From positions 1 to 36,357 of the IMG/VR virus record IMGVR_UViG_3300031728_000002: a stretch of DNA of 36,357 nucleotides. One strand, 5' to 3'. Position numbers and translations under genes: made by a program. The notes beneath the pieces were generated by a model. It was not told the origin of the DNA. It saw nothing but the letters and a program-made list of their open reading frames with translations, and did no database searches. The stretch is from a virus. How positions within the stretch are numbered: the first letter of the stretch is position 1; every line of letters starts with the position of its first letter. Shown piece after piece: positions 5,916-32,234 of the stretch.

Positions 5916-6453
5916 TGAATATGATATTCGATATTTAGGAACTCTATATGAGGATTTATCAGAAGTTACTAAACGTCAAACTATTACTCTTCAGTCATTA
6001 GAGAGAATTGCTATAGAGACACAGACTTTTCTAGAAGCACAAGGAGAGAAGGTTGATGATAATAAGAAAACGATAAAAGATCATGATGTTAGAATAAGAA
6101 GTGTTGAGAGAAAACAGGATTTGTGTAATGCATCAGATGATATTAGTGGAATAAAGAAACAGTTGAATCGTCTTATAGTTTTTAAAGATATGATTTTGTC
6201 TAAAACAAATGAAGATAGTGGAGTCTTAGATATTCATGCATTGAGGATGAAGAAAGCTGTTGATGATGCGATGCTTAATCAAATACCTGTTAAGCTTTTG
6301 TTGATAAAAATGTTACCTTGGATGATTCTTGTTTTTGTAGTAGGTATTGTATTAGCTACTATTATTACTACTAAAATGTTTTATGATGATAAAATTATTG
6401 TTCCTAATCCGCCAATTTCGCCAATAGAAACAGAAACGAACTCGAGTTCGTGA
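5899..6453 (+). CDS. Coiled-coil protein with C-terminal TM anchor
   Basis: 184 residues from the ATG at 5899, which has GGAG ten bases upstream; a longer reading from 5869 lacks such a site. Residues 1-130 are helical and polar (TKRQTITLQSLERIAIETQT, then KDHDVRIRSVERKQDL). Residues ~132-160 (MLPWMILVFVVGIVLATIIT) are a clear TM helix, and the tail is short and Pro/Ser/Thr-rich. A coiled coil with a C-terminal membrane anchor resembles XhlA-type lysis accessory proteins, though it is longer. The last codons and the TGA lie in a 16-bp palindrome (6436-6451). It overlaps the preceding membrane protein by 17 bases. Confidence 0.6.
   Translation: MSKKSDEYDIRYLGTLYEDLSEVTKRQTITLQSLERIAIETQTFLEAQGEKVDDNKKTIKDHDVRIRSVERKQDLCNASDDISGIKKQLNRLIVFKDMILSKTNEDSGVLDIHALRMKKAVDDAMLNQIPVKLLLIKMLPWMILVFVVGIVLATIITTKMFYDDKIIVPNPPISPIETETNSSS
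6436..6451. promoter_or_regulatory. 16-bp palindrome ACGAACTCGAGTTCGT, copy 1
   Basis: This is a perfect inverted repeat at the end of the preceding gene; its last base starts the TGA stop codon. The ribosome binding site AAAGGAG of the next reading frame starts 6 bases downstream. It is one of five copies of the core CGAACTCGAGTTCG in the window. The form GAAC-N4-GTTC matches LexA (SOS) boxes of Gram-positive type. As RNA it could form a 6-bp stem with a UCGA loop. Confidence 0.85.
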
Positions 6454-8521: not shown

Positions 8522-8537
8522 GCGAACTCGAGTTCGC
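8522..8537. promoter_or_regulatory. 16-bp palindrome GCGAACTCGAGTTCGC, copy 2
   Basis: This is a perfect inverted repeat lying wholly between the stop at 8514 and the ribosome binding site AAGAGG, which begins at the next base (8538). The gene start is at 8549. The outer base pair is G/C instead of A/T as in other copies, so the pairing is kept while the base changes. That is the kind of covariation expected for a protein-binding dyad or an RNA stem. Confidence 0.85.
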
Positions 8538-9733: not shown

Positions 9734-12529
9734 ATGACTGATTACACATATCCTGGGGTATATATTCAAGAGGTTCCTAGTGGTCCTGGTCCGATTACTG
9801 GTGTTTCAACATCTAATTTGGGTCTTATTGGTTTTTCTACCAAAGGTCCAGTTAATGAACCAATTATATCGACAAGTTTTCAGGAATTTTCGAACAGATT
9901 TGGAAGCTTTACAGAGAAGGGTTTATCTGCTCATGAAGCGTTTGCTTTTTTCTCTAATGGTGGACAAGTTTTGTATTTTGTTAGGGTTGTGGCTAGTGAT
10001 GCTGCAACAGCTTATTGGGATTTTGCTGCAACAGTATCAAGTGAAAATGTATCAAATACTGCTGAAGGAACAGGGATTTATGATTTGGAATTAGATCATT
10101 CCCCGGTTGTTCCTGCTACGTTGACATTGACGTTTACAAATTCTGGTACACCAGCAAATCAAAACGTATTTGTTGCTGATGCTAGTGGTGTGTTAACGTT
10201 AGATACAACAGCATCGGGTGGTTCAGCTGATGGTGGTACTGGTTCTGTTGATATGGAAACAGGGGAGATTCATGTAGAATTGACTACACCTGGTCAATTT
10301 ACAGGAAGTACTGATTATATTGTAGCTGAATATAATTATACGATATTCAGGTTTAGAATGGCATGGCCAGGATTGGCTGGGAATTATTTTAGAGTAAGGA
10401 TAATTCCAGGAAGTGATGACTATCTTGTTCAGGCTGAAGCTAGGTGGACAAGATTTACAGTAATCGTTGAAGAAGATGTAAATTATGATGCAACAAATCG
10501 TTCATGGTCAATTGTTGAGACATGGGCAGATCTTGTATTTGATGATTCAGAGGATCCAAATTTTGTTGCTACAGTAATAAATGCTGATGGTGCTGGGTCT
10601 GATTATATCGAAGTAGTTGATTATGGAAACGGAATGAATCCTGCAGCGCTTGCAGGAACACAAATTACGTCTGAGGATATTTCTGATACTCAATTACCAC
10701 AAGGCAGCACTTCTACTCCTCCTGTTGCATATGACGGAACAACAAAGGCTTGGGAATATACATTGGCAAATGCTCCATTTCAGAAGACTTTGAATATGGA
10801 TTTTCAGATGGCTGATGGCTTAGTATCTTTTACTGGTGCAGCCACAGCGGATAATGTAGTTCTTACAGATTCTGGAGCAAATTTTACTGGTGGTGGGGCA
10901 GCAGATAATTTAGCTGGTAAGATTGTTGTAAATATATCAAAAGGAGCTTCTGCTGTTATTACAGCTAATACGGCTACAACAATTACAGGTGTTTTAACAG
11001 GTGGGGCTGTAACATGGTTAATTGGTGATTTATATGCTGTTATTGAGGCATCAACAAAGATAGGGATAGGTACTGCTGATGCTGGTGGTGAAGAATCTGT
11101 AATATCACCTGGTAATGCATCAAATCCGGTTCAGATTGTTCCTGGTTCTGTTGTAATGGAATTGACTATTGCTGGTCCTGCAACTATTCATGTTATAGAT
11201 GATGGTTCAGGTAATTTATGGGATGGTGTATCAGGTAAATTAGCTACTATTAATTATACGACTGGTCAAATTACTGGTGCAAGTCCTACAACTGATGATT
11301 TGATTACAATACAGGAAGTAGCGGCATGGTCAACTGCTGTTACTGTTGTTGGATCAGAAATAAAGTTTGGTTGTATATATGCAGTTCCAATTGCATTGGA
11401 GGATGATGCAGATGGGAATATGGTAATGTCAGATACCCAAGCAACTGGGTATCCTGTTAAGTTTTCGCTTAATCTTGTTTCTGGTGTAAATACTGTTAAT
11501 TATACAACTGGTGTTGTTGATTTAACATGGAAAATTGAGGGTAATCCAGTTGCAGGTCCAGCAGGAGTATATTCTGAAACAGCTGATTATTATACAAATC
11601 CAGATGATGAGATAGCAACGGTATTAACAGGAGGGTCTGATGGGTCTTCTGTTTCTAGTGATGATGTTGTAGGTGCAGATTTGGCAGTTGACCAGGAAGG
11701 CATATATGCTTTTGGAAAAGTAAATGCCTTGATGCAACTTGTAGCTGCTGATTTTCAGACAGATACAAATGTTGCTGATGCACTTATTACATATGCTGAA
11801 TTGGTGAAGGATAAATTTGTTATTTTGACGGTTCCTCATGGTCTTAGTTATCAAGAGGCTGTTAATTGGAAGAAATTTCAACTTAACAAATATACTTCAT
11901 ATGCTGCTTTGTATTATCCGCATATCAAGATTAAGGACCCTGTGAGTGGAGTAAATCAGGATATTCCTGTTGGTGGACATGTAGCTGGGGTTTACGCAAG
12001 GACTGATACTATAAGAAATGTTGGTGAAGCTCCTGCTGGTACCGAAAAGGGTGTTTTGAATTGGTCAACTGGTCTTGAAGTTGAGTTGACTGATACACAG
12101 GTTGGTATTATATATCCAGAAAAGATAAATGCTTTAGTAGCATGGGCTAATACTGGACGTGTTGTATGGGGTGCTAGAACATTAGATATTTCTGGAGGTG
12201 AATGGCCATATATTCAGATGCGTAGGCTTTTCATGTTTGTTGAAAAATCAGTGTTTAATAGTACTCATTTGCATGTATTTAAAAACAATGGTTCTTCATT
12301 ATGGAGTGCAATAAGAACTCAGGTCGTTTCTTTCTTGTTAGGTTTGCACCAATCAGGATATTTTGCTGGAAATAGTCCAGATGAGTCATTCTTTGTGATT
12401 TGTGACCGGTCAAATAATCCTCAGAATACAGTGGACCAAGGTATCGTGTTTTGTGATGTAGGAATTGCACCTAATAAGCCAGCGGAATTCATAGTGTTCA
12501 GATTTCAGCAAAAGGCACTAACTAGTTAA
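9734..12529 (+). CDS. Contractile tail sheath protein
   Basis: 931 residues, behind GGAGTAAAAA. The N-terminus carries the hallmark of sheath proteins, YTYPGVYIQEVPSGPGPI followed by GLIGFSTKGPVNEP. The C-terminal third has the conserved core FVILTVPHGLSYQEAVNWKK, INALVAWANTGRVVWGARTL, WPYIQMRRLFMFVEKS and a last strand with FRFQQKA. It polymerises around the tail tube and contracts on infection. It is long for the family (T4 gp18 is 659 residues); the extra length is a beta-rich insertion, roughly residues 95-640, that should form surface domains on the sheath. This is one of the most certain assignments in the window and shows that the phage has a contractile tail. Confidence 0.95.
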   Translation: MTDYTYPGVYIQEVPSGPGPITGVSTSNLGLIGFSTKGPVNEPIISTSFQEFSNRFGSFTEKGLSAHEAFAFFSNGGQVLYFVRVVASDAATAYWDFAATVSSENVSNTAEGTGIYDLELDHSPVVPATLTLTFTNSGTPANQNVFVADASGVLTLDTTASGGSADGGTGSVDMETGEIHVELTTPGQFTGSTDYIVAEYNYTIFRFRMAWPGLAGNYFRVRIIPGSDDYLVQAEARWTRFTVIVEEDVNYDATNRSWSIVETWADLVFDDSEDPNFVATVINADGAGSDYIEVVDYGNGMNPAALAGTQITSEDISDTQLPQGSTSTPPVAYDGTTKAWEYTLANAPFQKTLNMDFQMADGLVSFTGAATADNVVLTDSGANFTGGGAADNLAGKIVVNISKGASAVITANTATTITGVLTGGAVTWLIGDLYAVIEASTKIGIGTADAGGEESVISPGNASNPVQIVPGSVVMELTIAGPATIHVIDDGSGNLWDGVSGKLATINYTTGQITGASPTTDDLITIQEVAAWSTAVTVVGSEIKFGCIYAVPIALEDDADGNMVMSDTQATGYPVKFSLNLVSGVNTVNYTTGVVDLTWKIEGNPVAGPAGVYSETADYYTNPDDEIATVLTGGSDGSSVSSDDVVGADLAVDQEGIYAFGKVNALMQLVAADFQTDTNVADALITYAELVKDKFVILTVPHGLSYQEAVNWKKFQLNKYTSYAALYYPHIKIKDPVSGVNQDIPVGGHVAGVYARTDTIRNVGEAPAGTEKGVLNWSTGLEVELTDTQVGIIYPEKINALVAWANTGRVVWGARTLDISGGEWPYIQMRRLFMFVEKSVFNSTHLHVFKNNGSSLWSAIRTQVVSFLLGLHQSGYFAGNSPDESFFVICDRSNNPQNTVDQGIVFCDVGIAPNKPAEFIVFRFQQKALTS

Positions 12530-14894: not shown

Positions 14895-15218
14895 ATGAGG
14901 AATAGATTATCTGATTTTATTATTGATAAGCCGGTTAAAGAGGAACATGTATTATCTTACAAAGGTAAACGTCTTTTTAGGGCATTAAAATCCTTGGGAG
15001 AGCGTTCCATCAAAGGACGTGATGTTGATAAATATATTTTTGAAGTTGTATATAAAAATGGTGTAGAAACATTAAGAATGCTTATCGAAGGTAGACATGC
15101 TTTATCTATTAGTAATCAGATAGCAAAAGGACTTTCAAATATGGACGAACTCGAGTTCGTTGATGTTGTGAAAACAAAGAATGGTGCGAAGATTGTACTT
15201 CGTTCTATTGGAGAGTAG
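14895..15218 (+). CDS. Hypothetical protein containing palindrome copy 3 in its coding sequence
   Basis: 107 residues, behind AAGGAATTGGTAAA. It is mixed alpha/beta and basic (KGKRLFRALKSLGERSIKGR), with a C-terminal beta hairpin (VDVVKTKNGAKIVLRSI). No family is recognised. Codons ~84-89 (DELEFV) lie in the 16-bp palindrome ACGAACTCGAGTTCGT at 15145-15160, identical to intergenic copies. The DNA motif thus seems to be kept inside a coding region. It lies about 70 bases before the next start. Confidence 0.5.
   Translation: MRNRLSDFIIDKPVKEEHVLSYKGKRLFRALKSLGERSIKGRDVDKYIFEVVYKNGVETLRMLIEGRHALSISNQIAKGLSNMDELEFVDVVKTKNGAKIVLRSIGE
15145..15160. promoter_or_regulatory. 16-bp palindrome ACGAACTCGAGTTCGT, copy 3 (intragenic)
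   Basis: This is identical to copies 1 and 4, but lies in the coding sequence of the gene at 14895-15218 and 67 bases before the next start codon at 15228. It is the only copy not directly in front of a ribosome binding site, so a strict ribosome-site-linked RNA function would not explain it. A DNA-binding site would be less restricted. Confidence 0.8.
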
Positions 15219-16157: not shown

Positions 16158-16173
16158 TGTTTCACGTGAAACA
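16158..16173. promoter_or_regulatory. parS: parS-like site TGTTTCACGTGAAACA
   Basis: This is a perfect 16-bp palindrome that matches the bacterial chromosomal parS consensus (TGTTNCACGTGAAACA, the ParB/Spo0J binding site) at every position. It lies between the stop at 16146 and the ribosome binding site GAGAGG (16174-16179) of the next gene. No ParA or ParB gene is in the window. A chance exact match in 36 kb is about 1 in 100,000 for equal base use. Whether ParB binds here is inference. Confidence 0.85.
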
Positions 16174-16188
16174 GAGAGGATGTGTAAG

Positions 16189-16479
16189 ATGTGTAAAAAG
16201 AAGACTGTAAATGTTGTGAATTCTGATGATTTGAGGAAGAAAGTTTCTGATGTTGAGATATTTGGTAATCCAGATACTTTTCAGTTAATTTGTAAGGCAA
16301 GTTCCAAAAATGAAGGATGGATGAAGTCAACAAAGGCTATGGAGATTCCCGGAAGAGGATGTATAATACAAGTTTCTACACAGCAAGGTGATAATGTTGC
16401 AGAAGCTATTTGTTTTGTTCCAGATGTTGTTATTTTAGTTGATGATGAAAGTGGAAATAAAAAGATAGTAAAAAGATAA
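16189..16479 (+). CDS. Hypothetical protein downstream of parS-like site
   Basis: 96 residues from ATG 16189. An in-frame ATG at 16180 (MCKMC) abuts the GAGAGG site directly, so the second ATG, 9 bases away, is preferred. After a short lysine/asparagine region the chain is a beta-rich fold (DTFQLICKASSKNEGWMKST, then RGCIIQVSTQQGDNVAEAIC, then DVVILVDDES). It has no membrane segment or recognised family. It is the last + strand gene before the opposite-strand cassette and ends 10 bases before the convergent receiver-protein gene. Confidence 0.5.
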   Translation: MCKKKTVNVVNSDDLRKKVSDVEIFGNPDTFQLICKASSKNEGWMKSTKAMEIPGRGCIIQVSTQQGDNVAEAICFVPDVVILVDDESGNKKIVKR

Positions 16480-16484
16480 TAATT

Positions 16485-16502
16485 GTGTTTTATGTCAAAC
16501 AC
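16485..16502. terminator. Possible weak bidirectional terminator hairpin
   Basis: GTGTTT at 16485-16490 pairs with AAACAC at 16497-16502 around a 6-base loop, between two convergent genes. On the minus strand a TTTTT run follows within about 15 bases. The stem is only 6 bp and AT-rich, so termination would be weak. The stop codon of the receiver-protein gene lies in the hairpin. Confidence 0.3.
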
Positions 16503-16840
16503 TTATTGACCCATTCAGTAACGAGAGCATCATATATTTCACAGACATCGCATGGTTTAGTAAGAATATGTATATTGGGCATATCATATTTGAGTGTATA
16601 GTTTGCTGTGTATATTACGAAGGGTATTGTTGAATGTTGAACTATCTTTAGTCCGTCTGATTTGTTTGGACAATCCCAATCACTAAGGATTATGTCAAAA
16701 TTTCCGTCTTGAAGAGCTATTAGTCCATCATCACAGGAATGTTTGACTGTTATACTTTTCCAAGTATTTTTCATTACTCTGGAAAGCATACGAGTAATTT
16801 GTTCATCATCATCAATGATTAGTAAATTTAGATTTTTCAT
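16490..16840 (-). CDS. CheY-like single-domain response regulator
   Basis: 116 residues from the ATG at 16840, directly after the stop of the upstream minus-strand gene; an in-frame ATG 12 codons earlier overlaps that gene. All receiver-domain landmarks are present: the acidic pocket D10/D11 in NLLIIDDDEQ, the phospho-acceptor D54 in ILSDWDCP, T78 in FVIYTAN, and K95-P96 in HILTKPCD. It has no output domain. As in CheY or Spo0F, it would be phosphorylated by a histidine kinase, presumably of the host, and act by protein contact. It lies in a three-gene opposite-strand cassette inserted in the late operon, read from the promoter at 17283-17310. A receiver protein is unusual in a phage tail region. 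Confidence 0.85.
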   Translation of the reverse strand: MKNLNLLIIDDDEQITRMLSRVMKNTWKSITVKHSCDDGLIALQDGNFDIILSDWDCPNKSDGLKIVQHSTIPFVIYTANYTLKYDMPNIHILTKPCDVCEIYDALVTEWVNKCLT

Positions 16841-16841
16841 T

Positions 16842-17021
16842 TTATTGTCTTTCTGTTTGGATCGTTGTTTCCACAAAATGGATAGTTAGTTTTATGATGT
16901 CTTCATGTGTTGGATTTTGTACCCACCAGTTGATTTCATTTTCGGCATATGCAAAACTGTTTGACCAACTAGGATGTTTTTTGGCTTCTTTGAATGATAT
17001 TGATGTTTTTGGGAGTGACAT
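16842..17021 (-). CDS. Small hypothetical protein of the opposite-strand cassette
   Basis: 59 residues from ATG 17021 to TAA 16842. The sequence starts MSLPKTSISFKEAKKHPSWS and includes the aromatic segment INWWVQNPTHEDIIKL; it is soluble and probably helical. The start lies 5 bases after the stop of the Cys-rich gene upstream, and the stop is 1 base before the ATG of the receiver protein, so the three genes form one tight unit. No strong ribosome binding site is visible, so translational coupling is likely. No family is recognised. It might be a partner of the receiver protein. Confidence 0.5.
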   Translation of the reverse strand: MSLPKTSISFKEAKKHPSWSNSFAYAENEINWWVQNPTHEDIIKLTIHFVETTIQTERQ

Positions 17022-17025
17022 TTAT

Positions 17026-17238
17026 TTACCATGCGATAGGGATTGATTTTTTGCATGAATCACAAGGTTCAGTATTTGCTTTGGAAAGATGTGAATTCAT
17101 AACATAAATAGCATTTCCTTCTTTTTCTAGTCGTTTAGCACATTCTGTACAGTAGAGATAACCTCTGTTGTCGACTATTCCTGTAATTGTATTATTTGGG
17201 TCATTTTTTTGATAGATATAAATTTCTGAGGCTTTCAT
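17026..17238 (-). CDS. Small Cys-rich, probably zinc-binding protein
   Basis: 70 residues from ATG 17238, behind AAAGGAACAAACTA on the minus strand. Two CxxC pairs (YCTEC at residues 29-33 and PCDSC near 58-62) are spaced as in a zinc ribbon. The N-terminus is MKASEIYIYQKNDPNNT. It is the first gene after the minus-strand promoter, so it is probably the best expressed of the three. Small zinc-ribbon proteins in phages often modulate host proteins such as RNA polymerase, but no specific family is recognised. Confidence 0.6.
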   Translation of the reverse strand: MKASEIYIYQKNDPNNTITGIVDNRGYLYCTECAKRLEKEGNAIYVMNSHLSKANTEPCDSCKKSIPIAW

Positions 17239-17254
17239 TAGTTTGTTCCTTTCT

Positions 17255-17271
17255 GTCGAAATCTTATCGAC
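17255..17271. repeat. Short inverted repeat in the minus-strand leader
   Basis: GTCGA and TCGAC form 5-bp arms around a 7-base centre (17255-17271). They lie between the minus-strand promoter and the ribosome binding site of the Cys-rich gene. It could be an operator for the neighbouring RHH protein or a leader hairpin. The arms are short, so this could be chance. Confidence 0.3.
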
Positions 17272-17282
17272 TATCTATATGA

Positions 17283-17310
17283 ATATTAACATTATGATAA
17301 AGTTTGTCAA
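17283..17310 (-). promoter_or_regulatory. Sigma70-type promoter for the opposite-strand cassette
   Basis: Read on the minus strand, TTGACA (17305-17310) is a perfect -35 hexamer. TAATAT (17283-17288) lies 16 bases downstream as a -10-like hexamer, 4 of 6 to consensus. The first cassette gene starts about 45 bases further on. The site suggests that host RNA polymerase transcribes the cassette independently of the late operon. Confidence 0.6.
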
Positions 17311-17399: not shown

Positions 17400-17579
17400 A
17401 TGCCAAGGTTGAATGTTGAAATAAAAAGTGGTGTATATAAGAGGTTTCTTGATCAATGTAAGGAGGATGGTAGAAGTGCTAGTGATGTTGTTAGAGAGTT
17501 GATTTTAGATTATGTGGAGAGAAGAGTTAGGGAAAAATTTAGGATTGCTAAAATAGAGAAAGAAGTTACAGATGAATGA
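17400..17579 (+). CDS. Ribbon-helix-helix (CopG/Arc-type) DNA-binding protein
   Basis: 59 residues from ATG 17400, behind AGGAAGGTTGTTGT. The sequence follows the RHH plan: a beta strand (RLNVEIK, residues 3-9), helix A (VYKRFLDQCKEDG), then a turn and helix B (SASDVVRELILDYVERRV). Such proteins dimerise and insert the paired strand into the DNA major groove at palindromic or tandem half-sites; Arc, CopG and MetJ are models. It overlaps the next gene by 8 bases and has its own promoter-like element next to the divergent cassette promoter. Autoregulation or control of the palindromes seen elsewhere in the window is possible. Targets are not shown by the sequence. Confidence 0.8.
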   Translation: MPRLNVEIKSGVYKRFLDQCKEDGRSASDVVRELILDYVERRVREKFRIAKIEKEVTDE

Positions 17580-18399
17580 GATGAATGATGAAAAGATTAT
17601 CGATGATAAAATTGTATTAGATAAGACAAAAGGTCATGTTCTTGATATAGGGCCAGGTTGTATTACTATTGAATTGCCAGCGGGATATATTCATGATGAT
17701 GGAGATCTTCACGTGCATGCTGTATTACGTGAGATGAAGGGACCAGAAGAAGAATTGTTGGCTAGTAAAGGTTCAATAGTTTCTAGATTGAATGTTATAA
17801 TTGGGAATTGCTTAGAGCAAATAGGGTCTATTAGTGATAAGTCTTTATTAAGAAAAATAGCTTGTAATCTGATAGCTCAAGATAGAATGGCTATTCTTTT
17901 GGCTCTTCGTAGAATATCACTTGGTGATTTTTATGATTGTACAGTTACATGTCCAGAGTGTAATGTGAGTCAGCATGTTACGGTAAATTTATCAGAAATT
18001 GAAATTTCACCAATGCCAAATAGGATGGAAAGAGAAATGGTTAATGTTCTTCCTAGTGGAAGAGAAGTAAAATGGCATGTGATAAGGATAGAAGATGAAG
18101 AATGGCTTACAGAGCAGCGTAAAAGAAAAAGAGATAAAGAACTTTTAACATTACATTTATTGTCTCGTGTTGATTCGATTGATGATATTGAAGTAGATAG
18201 AAAGAATAAGTATAAAGAAGCTATTGATTTGTTGATGGATTTACCGATAAGGGATAGAGCTACTTTGAGAGATCTTTTTGATAAAAAAGAAGATAATATA
18301 GATACGTTGGTGCAGTTTATGTGTGAGAGGTGTGGACATGAATGGGAAGGTAAGTTGGATGTTGGTCAGCCAAGTTTTTTCTTCCCATCGGTCAAATAG
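17572..18399 (+). CDS. T4 gp26/gp51-like baseplate assembly protein / tail assembly chaperone
   Basis: 275 residues in the zero frame. The ATG at 17572 overlaps the RHH stop; an in-frame ATG at 17581 is possible. The middle is helical (RLNVIIGNCLEQIG, then LALRRISLGDFYDCTV). A zinc-ribbon-like pair of knuckles, CPEC near residue 129 and CERCGHEWEG near 251, brackets a helical domain. The end, VGQPSFFFPSVK, is typical of these T4-gp26-like proteins, which normally continue into a helical '..E-x-Y-x-L...MP..RR..' segment. Here that segment is in the -1 frame, just behind a T TTT TTC slippery heptamer. The next intact gene is the tape measure, the expected neighbour of a tail assembly chaperone. 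Confidence 0.75.
   Translation: MNEMNDEKIIDDKIVLDKTKGHVLDIGPGCITIELPAGYIHDDGDLHVHAVLREMKGPEEELLASKGSIVSRLNVIIGNCLEQIGSISDKSLLRKIACNLIAQDRMAILLALRRISLGDFYDCTVTCPECNVSQHVTVNLSEIEISPMPNRMEREMVNVLPSGREVKWHVIRIEDEEWLTEQRKRKRDKELLTLHLLSRVDSIDDIEVDRKNKYKEAIDLLMDLPIRDRATLRDLFDKKEDNIDTLVQFMCERCGHEWEGKLDVGQPSFFFPSVK
18375..18381 (+). promoter_or_regulatory. -1 frameshift slippery heptamer T TTT TTC
   Basis: The zero frame reads AGT TTT TTC TTC, so bases 18375-18381 form the canonical X XXY YYZ heptamer T TTT TTC. After a -1 slip, translation enters an open frame with CTT CCC ATC GGT and continues to TAA 18579-18581. The zero-frame stop is only 16 bases beyond the heptamer. Recoding of this kind is well known in tail assembly chaperone genes next to the tape measure (lambda G/GT). 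Confidence 0.65.
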
Positions 18400-18581: not shown

Positions 18582-18596
18582 CGAACTCGAGTTCGT
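18581..18596. promoter_or_regulatory. 16-bp palindrome ACGAACTCGAGTTCGT, copy 4
   Basis: This is a perfect inverted repeat whose first base is the last base of the TAA that closes the frameshift extension. The GAGG ribosome binding site of the tape measure gene follows directly at 18597-18600. It is placed exactly between two tightly linked tail genes. Confidence 0.85.
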
Positions 18597-24703: not shown

Positions 24704-24719
24704 GCGAACTCGAGTTCGT
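24704..24719. promoter_or_regulatory. Palindrome copy 5, core CGAACTCGAGTTCG
   Basis: The 14-bp core 24705-24718 is perfect; the outer pair is G/T, so the full 16-mer is imperfect here. It starts two bases after the TAA of the Pro-rich gene. The next gene begins at 24738, with a weak ribosome site ATAGGG between them. It marks the boundary between spike and wedge genes. Confidence 0.85.
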
Positions 24720-31334: not shown

Positions 31335-31355
31335 TAATAATATGAGAGGTATTTG

Positions 31356-32234
31356 ATGAATATATATTATATAAATTTGGATCGTTCAGAAGATAGAAGA
31401 GAAAAAATGGAGAAATCTTTTGAGCATGAAAAATTAATAAGGATATCCGCTATAGATGGTATGGAATGGGCTATTGAAGATACGTTTGATAATAGAGGTT
31501 TTCTTGTATGGAATTTGGAATATCGTGATAAATTTGTTAATGAAGGTATATTGCTTGAAAACAGTATTCTTCCACCAACCCATGTTGCGTGTAATTTAAG
31601 TCATAGAAAAGCTATTCAGGAATTTTTGAATACTGATGATGAATGGGCAGTTATTATGGAGGATGATGTTGAAAGGTCAAAAGTTTATTTGAAAGATGGA
31701 GAATTGATAGAAAAAAAAGTAGTTATTCCTAGTGATGCTGATATGTTTTATTTATGTGGAACAAGACCAGATAGACGGATATACGTTTTTGATGATGGTC
31801 AAGTTAGAAAAACTAGAACATTGATGGGATATTGTATATCAAGAAGAGGTGCTGAATTATTTTTAAAATCAACAATACCAATGATGTGGCTTTCTGATTA
31901 TCAATTTCCTGTTTGTTGTTTTGATAGTATGTCGAATAATATAAGAGAGAACAAAATAAGAGATAGGAGAATAGTTTTTAAAAAGCGTACATTATTTAAA
32001 GAGAACAAAGATGATAAAGGAAATATTACGAGAAAGAAAAAGGAATGTGTTTCATTTTCAATTCCAAGTAGAGATAAATATAGGATTATAAAATCAATTT
32101 TACCAAATGAAATAGAAAGTGAAGAAAAGATAAAAGCTTTTGCTGATAAAAAAAATGGTTTAATAAAGCATTCTATTTTGTCTAAGCAATCATTGCTTGG
32201 TCATTACAAAGGACATGGGAAAAGGTTTCATTGA
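31356..32234 (+). CDS. Glycosyltransferase family 25-like (LPS biosynthesis type)
   Basis: 292 residues from ATG 31356 behind GAGAGGTATTTG; a TTG directly before it is less likely. It fits family GT25: YYINLDRSEDRREKMEK at the start, AIDG near 34, LSHRKAIQEF near 85, and the catalytic acidic motif VIMEDDVE near 105, then GYCISRRGAELFL. GT25 enzymes transfer galactose or glucose to LPS or to protein. Placed between fibre genes, it might glycosylate the fibre or alter the host surface against superinfection. The C-terminal ~70 residues are basic and low in motifs. Confidence 0.75.
   Translation: MNIYYINLDRSEDRREKMEKSFEHEKLIRISAIDGMEWAIEDTFDNRGFLVWNLEYRDKFVNEGILLENSILPPTHVACNLSHRKAIQEFLNTDDEWAVIMEDDVERSKVYLKDGELIEKKVVIPSDADMFYLCGTRPDRRIYVFDDGQVRKTRTLMGYCISRRGAELFLKSTIPMMWLSDYQFPVCCFDSMSNNIRENKIRDRRIVFKKRTLFKENKDDKGNITRKKKECVSFSIPSRDKYRIIKSILPNEIESEEKIKAFADKKNGLIKHSILSKQSLLGHYKGHGKRFH

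Follow-up and report, generated by a model that had tools for sequence, protein, structure and literature searches.

Organization of the Cassette and Its Neighbors

The window, i.e. the whole stretch of DNA analyzed here (36,357 nucleotides, a 36-kb IMG/VR virus record), carries a three-gene cassette on the minus strand, surrounded by contractile-tail genes that all lie on the plus strand (sheath, two tube proteins, a gp26/gp51-like baseplate protein, tape measure, and wedge proteins). The first cassette gene (17026–17238, minus strand) encodes a 70-residue protein with two CxxC pairs (C30/C33 and C59/C62), probably a zinc ribbon, for which no Pfam family scored over cut-off. The second (16842–17021, minus strand) encodes a 59-residue protein of no family, and the last (16490–16840, minus strand, ATG at 16840) a stand-alone receiver of 116 residues. 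A preliminary description of this DNA had proposed such a receiver, without an output domain and directed against the tail genes, with D10/D11, D54, T78, and K95 as its catalytic residues; the open reading frame, its orientation, and the residues are confirmed.

On the promoter side the cassette is adjoined by a divergent gene (17400–17579, plus strand) for a 59-residue ribbon-helix-helix (RHH; CopG/Arc-like) protein, a candidate regulator on the basis of sub-threshold family matches, and then by the gene for the T4 gp26/gp51-like baseplate protein (17572–18399, plus strand). At the other end a 99-residue gene (16180–16479, plus strand, with its start probably at 16189) converges with the receiver gene. 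No consensus terminator was called at the convergent gene ends; an inverted repeat, TGTTT...AAACA (16486–16501, unstranded; GTGTTT...AAACAC with its outer letters), is possibly a weak terminator there.

Scans of viral contigs recovered the receiver from ten other viral records (G001–G010): two phages near-identical to the window (G001 and G002), a pair at 50% receiver identity (G003 and G004), and G005, G006, G007, G008, G009, and G010. The window, G001–G004, and G007 share the antisense receiver between tube-side and RHH-baseplate genes, and one phage, with a 69% identical adjoining baseplate protein, has all three cassette genes in this order. The 59-residue cassette protein has a 46% identical homologue in G003/G004 and is absent from the near-identical G001 and G002, and the 99-residue convergent gene was not found in G003/G004/G007. 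In the G007 cassette (L107:15853–16677 plus a small upstream ORF), a 57-residue putative membrane protein and a 274-residue cysteine-containing protein of no known family replace the CxxC and 59-residue genes. The receiver genes of G005, G006, G009, and G010 precede an ATP-dependent DNA ligase gene and the terminase-portal region and are co-directional with them. Since the receiver gene is antisense among tail genes in some lineages and near the DNA ligase in others, it has been kept though its place has changed.

The RHH gene accompanies the antisense cassette in the window, G001–G004, and G007, i.e. in every lineage with this arrangement, and no RHH match was detected in the contigs with the receiver elsewhere (G005, G006, G009, and G010). 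This association would fit a sensor on the phage side, in which the receiver relays the host phosphorylation state to a phage protein (for example the RHH protein encoded divergently or a further product of the cassette) and so times phage gene expression. However, the receivers near the DNA ligase have no RHH match beside them and the cassette partners vary between lineages, and we consider such a role improbable.

Two further genes of the window may be recorded. The tail sheath (9734–12529) is very large, at 931 residues, and in a pairwise search its C-terminal part (approximately 655–926) alone aligned with the sheaths of isolated phages. A family 25 glycosyltransferase (31353–32234; PHROG annotation "glucosyltransferase, host takeover") follows the baseplate and fibre-sized genes.

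Fold of the 116-Residue Protein

The structure prediction and homology searches that the preliminary description had proposed as a check return a receiver. The window protein matches the Pfam Response_reg profile (PF00072) with E=1e-6 and 29.3 bits, just under the gathering score of 30.2, and 8 of the 11 records of the family exceed this cut-off. Solved CheY sequences match it at 1e-5 in a search of PDB sequences, CheY being the best match among sequences of solved structure. Its AlphaFold2 (AF2) model, built on a six-sequence alignment (pLDDT 88), has a receiver fold and superposes on the best solved receivers with Z of about 17 over 109–115 residues. With regard to the (β-α)5 arrangement, the window model fits receivers minus α4, and that of the G004 homologue has all five helices. 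From the concordance of the Pfam, PDB-sequence, and fold searches, a receiver fold is predicted with good confidence, and the open reading frame did not arise by chance.

The PHROG matches (phrog_731 and phrog_5982), which also count toward receiver identity, are both of unknown function. The NCBIfam search gave no specific subfamily, every score being far below the cut-offs. Fold comparison rules out a structural-protein identity for the 116-residue protein. The cyclic-phosphate receiver of jumbo phages, cREC (PMC7824862), gave only weak fold matches (TM about 0.5) and was set aside, the Response_reg profile and the catalytic residues fitting instead.

The Catalytic Side Is Kept and the Output Side Largely Lost

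Comparisons within the family used nine distinct receiver sequences from seven phage lineages, with 34–50% identity between lineages. The window protein has the acidic residues D10/D11/D12, the phospho-acceptor D54, T78, and K95 followed by P96; the five catalytic positions (the acidic pair, the acceptor Asp, Thr/Ser, and Lys) are kept in all nine sequences. The residue two positions after the acceptor (D+2) is Asp or Glu in the phage receivers, and that at T+2 is mostly Asn, with Thr in one; hydrophilic residues at these positions are predicted to speed dephosphorylation (PMC8510515).

The region between β4 and β5 is different. The spacing from T78 to K95 is 14–17 in eight of the nine phage receivers and 21 in G004, compared with 20–23, mostly 22, in all 58 bacterial receivers sampled; a linker of 14–17 residues leaves too little room for a normal α4. 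The β5 switch position (K-3) is Ile or Val in 9/9 phage sequences (I92 in the window, where the switch aromatic is expected) and aromatic (Tyr/Phe) in 53/58 of the bacterial ones. AF2 predicts no α4 for the window protein and a short α4 (residues 82–90) for G004. Loss of the β5 aromatic is thus universal in the phage family; loss of α4 is common but, because G004 has a 21-residue linker and a predicted α4, not universal. The family therefore lacks what characterizes a switching receiver of the CheY/OmpR type, namely the β5 aromatic of Y-T coupling together with α4, the linker being short in 8/9. The receiver had been described as complete, which is true of its phosphorylation site and not of its output side, where α4 and the β5 aromatic are missing.

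Could the protein nevertheless act as an effector that, whether phosphorylated or not, binds one particular host target (for instance a motor, a protease, or a polymerase) and directly alters the activity of that target, as do CheY and CpdR? Many single-domain response regulators work by protein binding, among them CpdR, an atypical FATGUY-like receiver, and positions M18, R21, and L106 in α1 and α5 (window numbering) are conserved in the phage family. The parts of the canonical switch are gone, however (the K-3 aromatic in 9/9 and the normal linker in 8/9), and no output-face patch is obviously conserved; we judge direct action as an effector rather unlikely.

Receivers use helix α1 to dock on kinases, and in this family that helix holds the invariant M18 and R21. 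A receiver that inhibits host histidine kinases by binding and occupying them, its phosphorylation being incidental, would have a parallel in PIT4 of the Pseudomonas phage LSL4, which binds several histidine kinase domains and changes two-component output (PMC10714779). PIT4 is thus comparable as a phage protein that acts on several host histidine kinases, but it is not described as a receiver in that work. Pure blocking needs none of D54, T78, and K95, yet all three are invariant across 34–50% identity, which makes simple occupancy a quite unlikely mode of action.

A Conserved Predicted Promoter and Leader Precede the Cassette

Upstream of the cassette is a predicted sigma70-type promoter (17283–17310, minus strand; TTGACA-16/17-TAATAT/AATATT), the TTGACA of which is kept in G001, G004, and G007. 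It is followed by a conserved 5' leader (17245–17279, minus strand) consisting of TATAGATAG, a hairpin (TCGAT-AAGAT-TTCGA), and a GAAAGGA ribosome-binding sequence. The same upstream layout is observed in the window, G001, G004, and G007: TTGACA, a plausible -10, a TATAGATAG-like sequence, a 5–6 bp hairpin with an (A/G)AGAT loop, and GAAAGGA. Among five variants of the hairpin, 90% of pairs are kept and 3/6 pairs show changes on both sides; this covariation was reached by 1/500 shuffles, in a sample of few (five) and related sequences.

The promoter-leader element also precedes two non-tail genes at the far end of the sister phage G001 (contig 2051 and 336), one for a 118-residue protein and the other for a cysteine-containing protein with a frame running off the contig end. 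The gene at G001 L012:1–267, which has the cassette promoter element and is incomplete at the contig end, encodes the C-terminal letters SMPGARWNPDEKH, which are reminiscent of SNF2/HARP helicases. The promoter search turned up nine further TTGACA sites across the window; visual comparison with the ORF list and gene-start table showed none with a fitting -10 before the starts of the plus-strand (tail) genes of the window. T4-late-like TATA boxes were considered as a late promoter of the cassette and rejected; because plus-strand copies of TATAGAT are frequent and bear no relation to gene starts, this motif was left out as promoter evidence. On this evidence the cassette would belong to a gene set transcribed by the host RNA polymerase, probably early and separately from the tail genes.

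Two other short elements recur in these phages. The exact 16-mer TGTTTCACGTGAAACA (16158–16173) is also found at G001:5994–6009 (L012) and at the homologous G002 site (L016 5775–5790), and in two phage genes it immediately precedes the ribosome-binding site. It is identical to the canonical consensus of the bacterial parS (ParB) site; at least 120 other stretches of viral contigs contain it, and no ParB gene to pair with it was found in the phage contigs. The perfect palindrome CGAACTCGAGTTCG is present five times in the window (6437–6450, 8523–8536, 15146–15159, 18582–18595, and 24705–24718), mostly just before gene starts, a repetition seen in 0 of 100 shuffles; G001 and G002 have six copies each, and G003 and G004 three each. 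It fits the CGAAC-N4-GTTCG form of the LexA box of Gram-positives, and it would be foldable as an RNA hairpin too.

Relationships, Selection, and Exchange

When placed in one tree with 58 bacterial receivers, the phage proteins group as a single clade with support of 100/100 and a long stem, the backbone being weakly supported. The bacterial set (n=58) was chosen for resemblance to the phage proteins and so was not sampled at random, a choice that should bias it toward phage-likeness, not away from it. By this comparison the phage receivers appear as a phage-only clade, remote from the bacterial receivers sampled. Direct descent from a bacterial receiver was considered and rejected: genome scan matches are at most 39% identical and mostly cover a partial domain, and with the long stem and weak backbone support it is not possible to name a bacterial donor. 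Isolated phages gave no relative of the window receiver at 1e-5 and, against one family member, weak matches alone (27–35% identity) at 1e-2; no DNA similarity of the region 15.0–18.6 kb to isolated phages was found.

Between the window and G001 the receiver gene shows eight synonymous and two non-synonymous differences (ω 0.06), and between G009 and G010 an ω of 0.28; more distant pairs are saturated. The first of these ratios places the receiver frame under purifying selection. A passenger gene, degenerate or neutral and currently without function, might be suspected from the shortened α4 region, the lost switch residue, and the cassette genes that come and go, but it is disfavored by this selection (ω about 0.06 between near-identical phages), by the invariance of the catalytic site across lineages, and by the conserved promoter, so that we regard it as scarcely credible.

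Synonymous divergence is 0.12–0.16 for the receiver and CxxC genes and 0.02 for the adjoining 99-residue and baseplate genes, on small counts. This difference, together with the lack of the 59-residue gene in G001 and G002, fits exchange of the cassette among phages. The GC content of the cassette (0.33) is close to that of its surroundings (0.34–0.36), i.e. the anomalous base composition expected of a moron is not seen, and this speaks against a recent import from another type of genome. Two other properties of morons are found: a putative promoter of its own, independent of the neighbors, as indicated by the conserved TTGACA and leader hairpin, and variable presence and content (near-identical phages lack the 59-residue gene, G007 has other partners, and the receiver lies elsewhere in G005/G006/G009/G010). 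The suggestion that the cassette is a moron-like acquired unit is therefore retained as regards its promoter and variable gene content, and recent acquisition is doubtful in view of the long-stemmed phage-only clade and the matching GC. In what we regard as the best reading of the locus, the cassette forms an accessory, moron-like transcription unit, self-contained within the genome of a contractile-tailed phage, and the receiver is its main recognizable product.

Comparison with Known Receivers

CheY-like proteins in phage tail modules are already known from the Alteromonas phages V22 (gp30) and A5 (gp11), where they lie in the host-recognition/tail module and are proposed class II AMGs (PMC7289586; PMC10579305); the window receiver is a further variant. 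It differs from these proteins, which have 147–149 residues, show 17% identity in the structural match, and were not recovered by tblastn with clade members. Its similarity to CheY includes the DWxxP around the acceptor Asp and a polar D+2; however, the Y106 equivalent and α4, parts of the FliM-binding face of CheY, are missing.

Like Spo0F, a single-domain receiver able to serve as a phosphorelay intermediary (PMC9981736), the phage protein could be an intermediary, and the analogy to Spo0F drawn in the preliminary description is sharpened by the loss of output-side elements. Nothing links the two by descent: no specific sequence kinship was found, no evidence points to a sporulating host, and the phage linker is 14–17 residues compared with 20–23 in the bacterial receivers sampled.

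Closer parallels are Sma0114, SdrG, and MrrA of the FATGUY group and CckA-Rec, which have no output domain or are intermediary receivers, and retain an intact phospho-acceptor site; in these, α4 is absent or disordered, the Y-T coupling residue is lacking, or both (PMC9981736; PMC5964349). Absence of α4 has been noted in Rec-only proteins, and intermediary receivers have been argued to take a passive part in phosphotransfer, their 4-5-5 face not being under allosteric control (PMC9981736); MrrA, LovR, and SdrG are precedents for hub and sink roles, MrrA exemplifying a hub and LovR a sink (PMC5964349). Absence of α4 and/or of the β5 aromatic, the second mark of the FATGUY group, is seen in the phage family. 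In contrast to these bacterial proteins, the window receiver is phage-encoded, falls in a clade apart from the bacterial receivers sampled, and matches the PFxFATG[G/Y] motif only loosely in β4 (PFVIYTANY in the window and PVV[VI]xTG[NT] in relatives). Because this motif is lacking, we claim a similar way of working and not membership of the group.

A Candidate Phosphate Drain on Host Signaling

No HATPase_c domain was found in nine phage records and no HPt in eleven, all of them fragments. With neither a kinase nor an HPt found in these partial contigs, a host kinase or HPt is the simplest assumption for the phosphate donor. Interception of host phosphate by the receiver, as judged from its sequence, is plausible. 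The particular pathways once suggested for it (sporulation, motility, or stress) find no support in this analysis.

The combination of a kept catalytic side with a lost output side is best fitted by a receiver-only protein that draws phosphate off a host phosphorelay, as a shunt or sink, a function for which we put the chances at about even. In the proposed mechanism the sigma70 RNA polymerase of the host would transcribe the cassette from its own TTGACA promoter, apart from the tail genes and presumably early. The protein is predicted to adopt a receiver fold with an intact Mg/phospho-acceptor site, and a host histidine kinase or HPt would phosphorylate D54. Judging from published work on receiver kinetics, the hydrophilic D+2 (Asp/Glu) and T+2 (mostly Asn) would favor fast hydrolysis of the phospho-aspartate. 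Without the β5 aromatic, and mostly without α4, the output face would not switch, and the net effect would therefore be less phosphate on the host's own regulator. Several observations stand against such a sink: in G004 the linker still has 21 residues and α4 is predicted, the receiver may still bind a partner via other faces (CpdR, a Rec-only protein, acts by protein binding), the bacterial receivers compared were selected for similarity and not at random, and the contigs are incomplete, so that a phage kinase could be encoded elsewhere.

The fuller proposal is that a phage-only receiver family, stripped of its output switch, serves as a phosphate drain on host two-component signaling, is expressed early from a host-type promoter common to non-tail genes, and is kept by several contractile-tailed lineages; we hold this tentatively, at somewhat short of an even chance. 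It predicts that a phosphorylatable receiver without a working switch lowers phosphate on the host regulator during infection, and that D54A abolishes the effect. Phage proteins that bind host kinases have precedents, and those resembling CheY carry the annotation of auxiliary genes with no mechanism attached; the literature searched yielded no described example of a phosphate drain encoded by a phage. If the proposal is correct, the receiver would be a compact natural tool to damp two-component signaling and would represent a distinct phage strategy, in which the host phosphorelay is silenced by competing for its phosphate and not by inhibiting its proteins.
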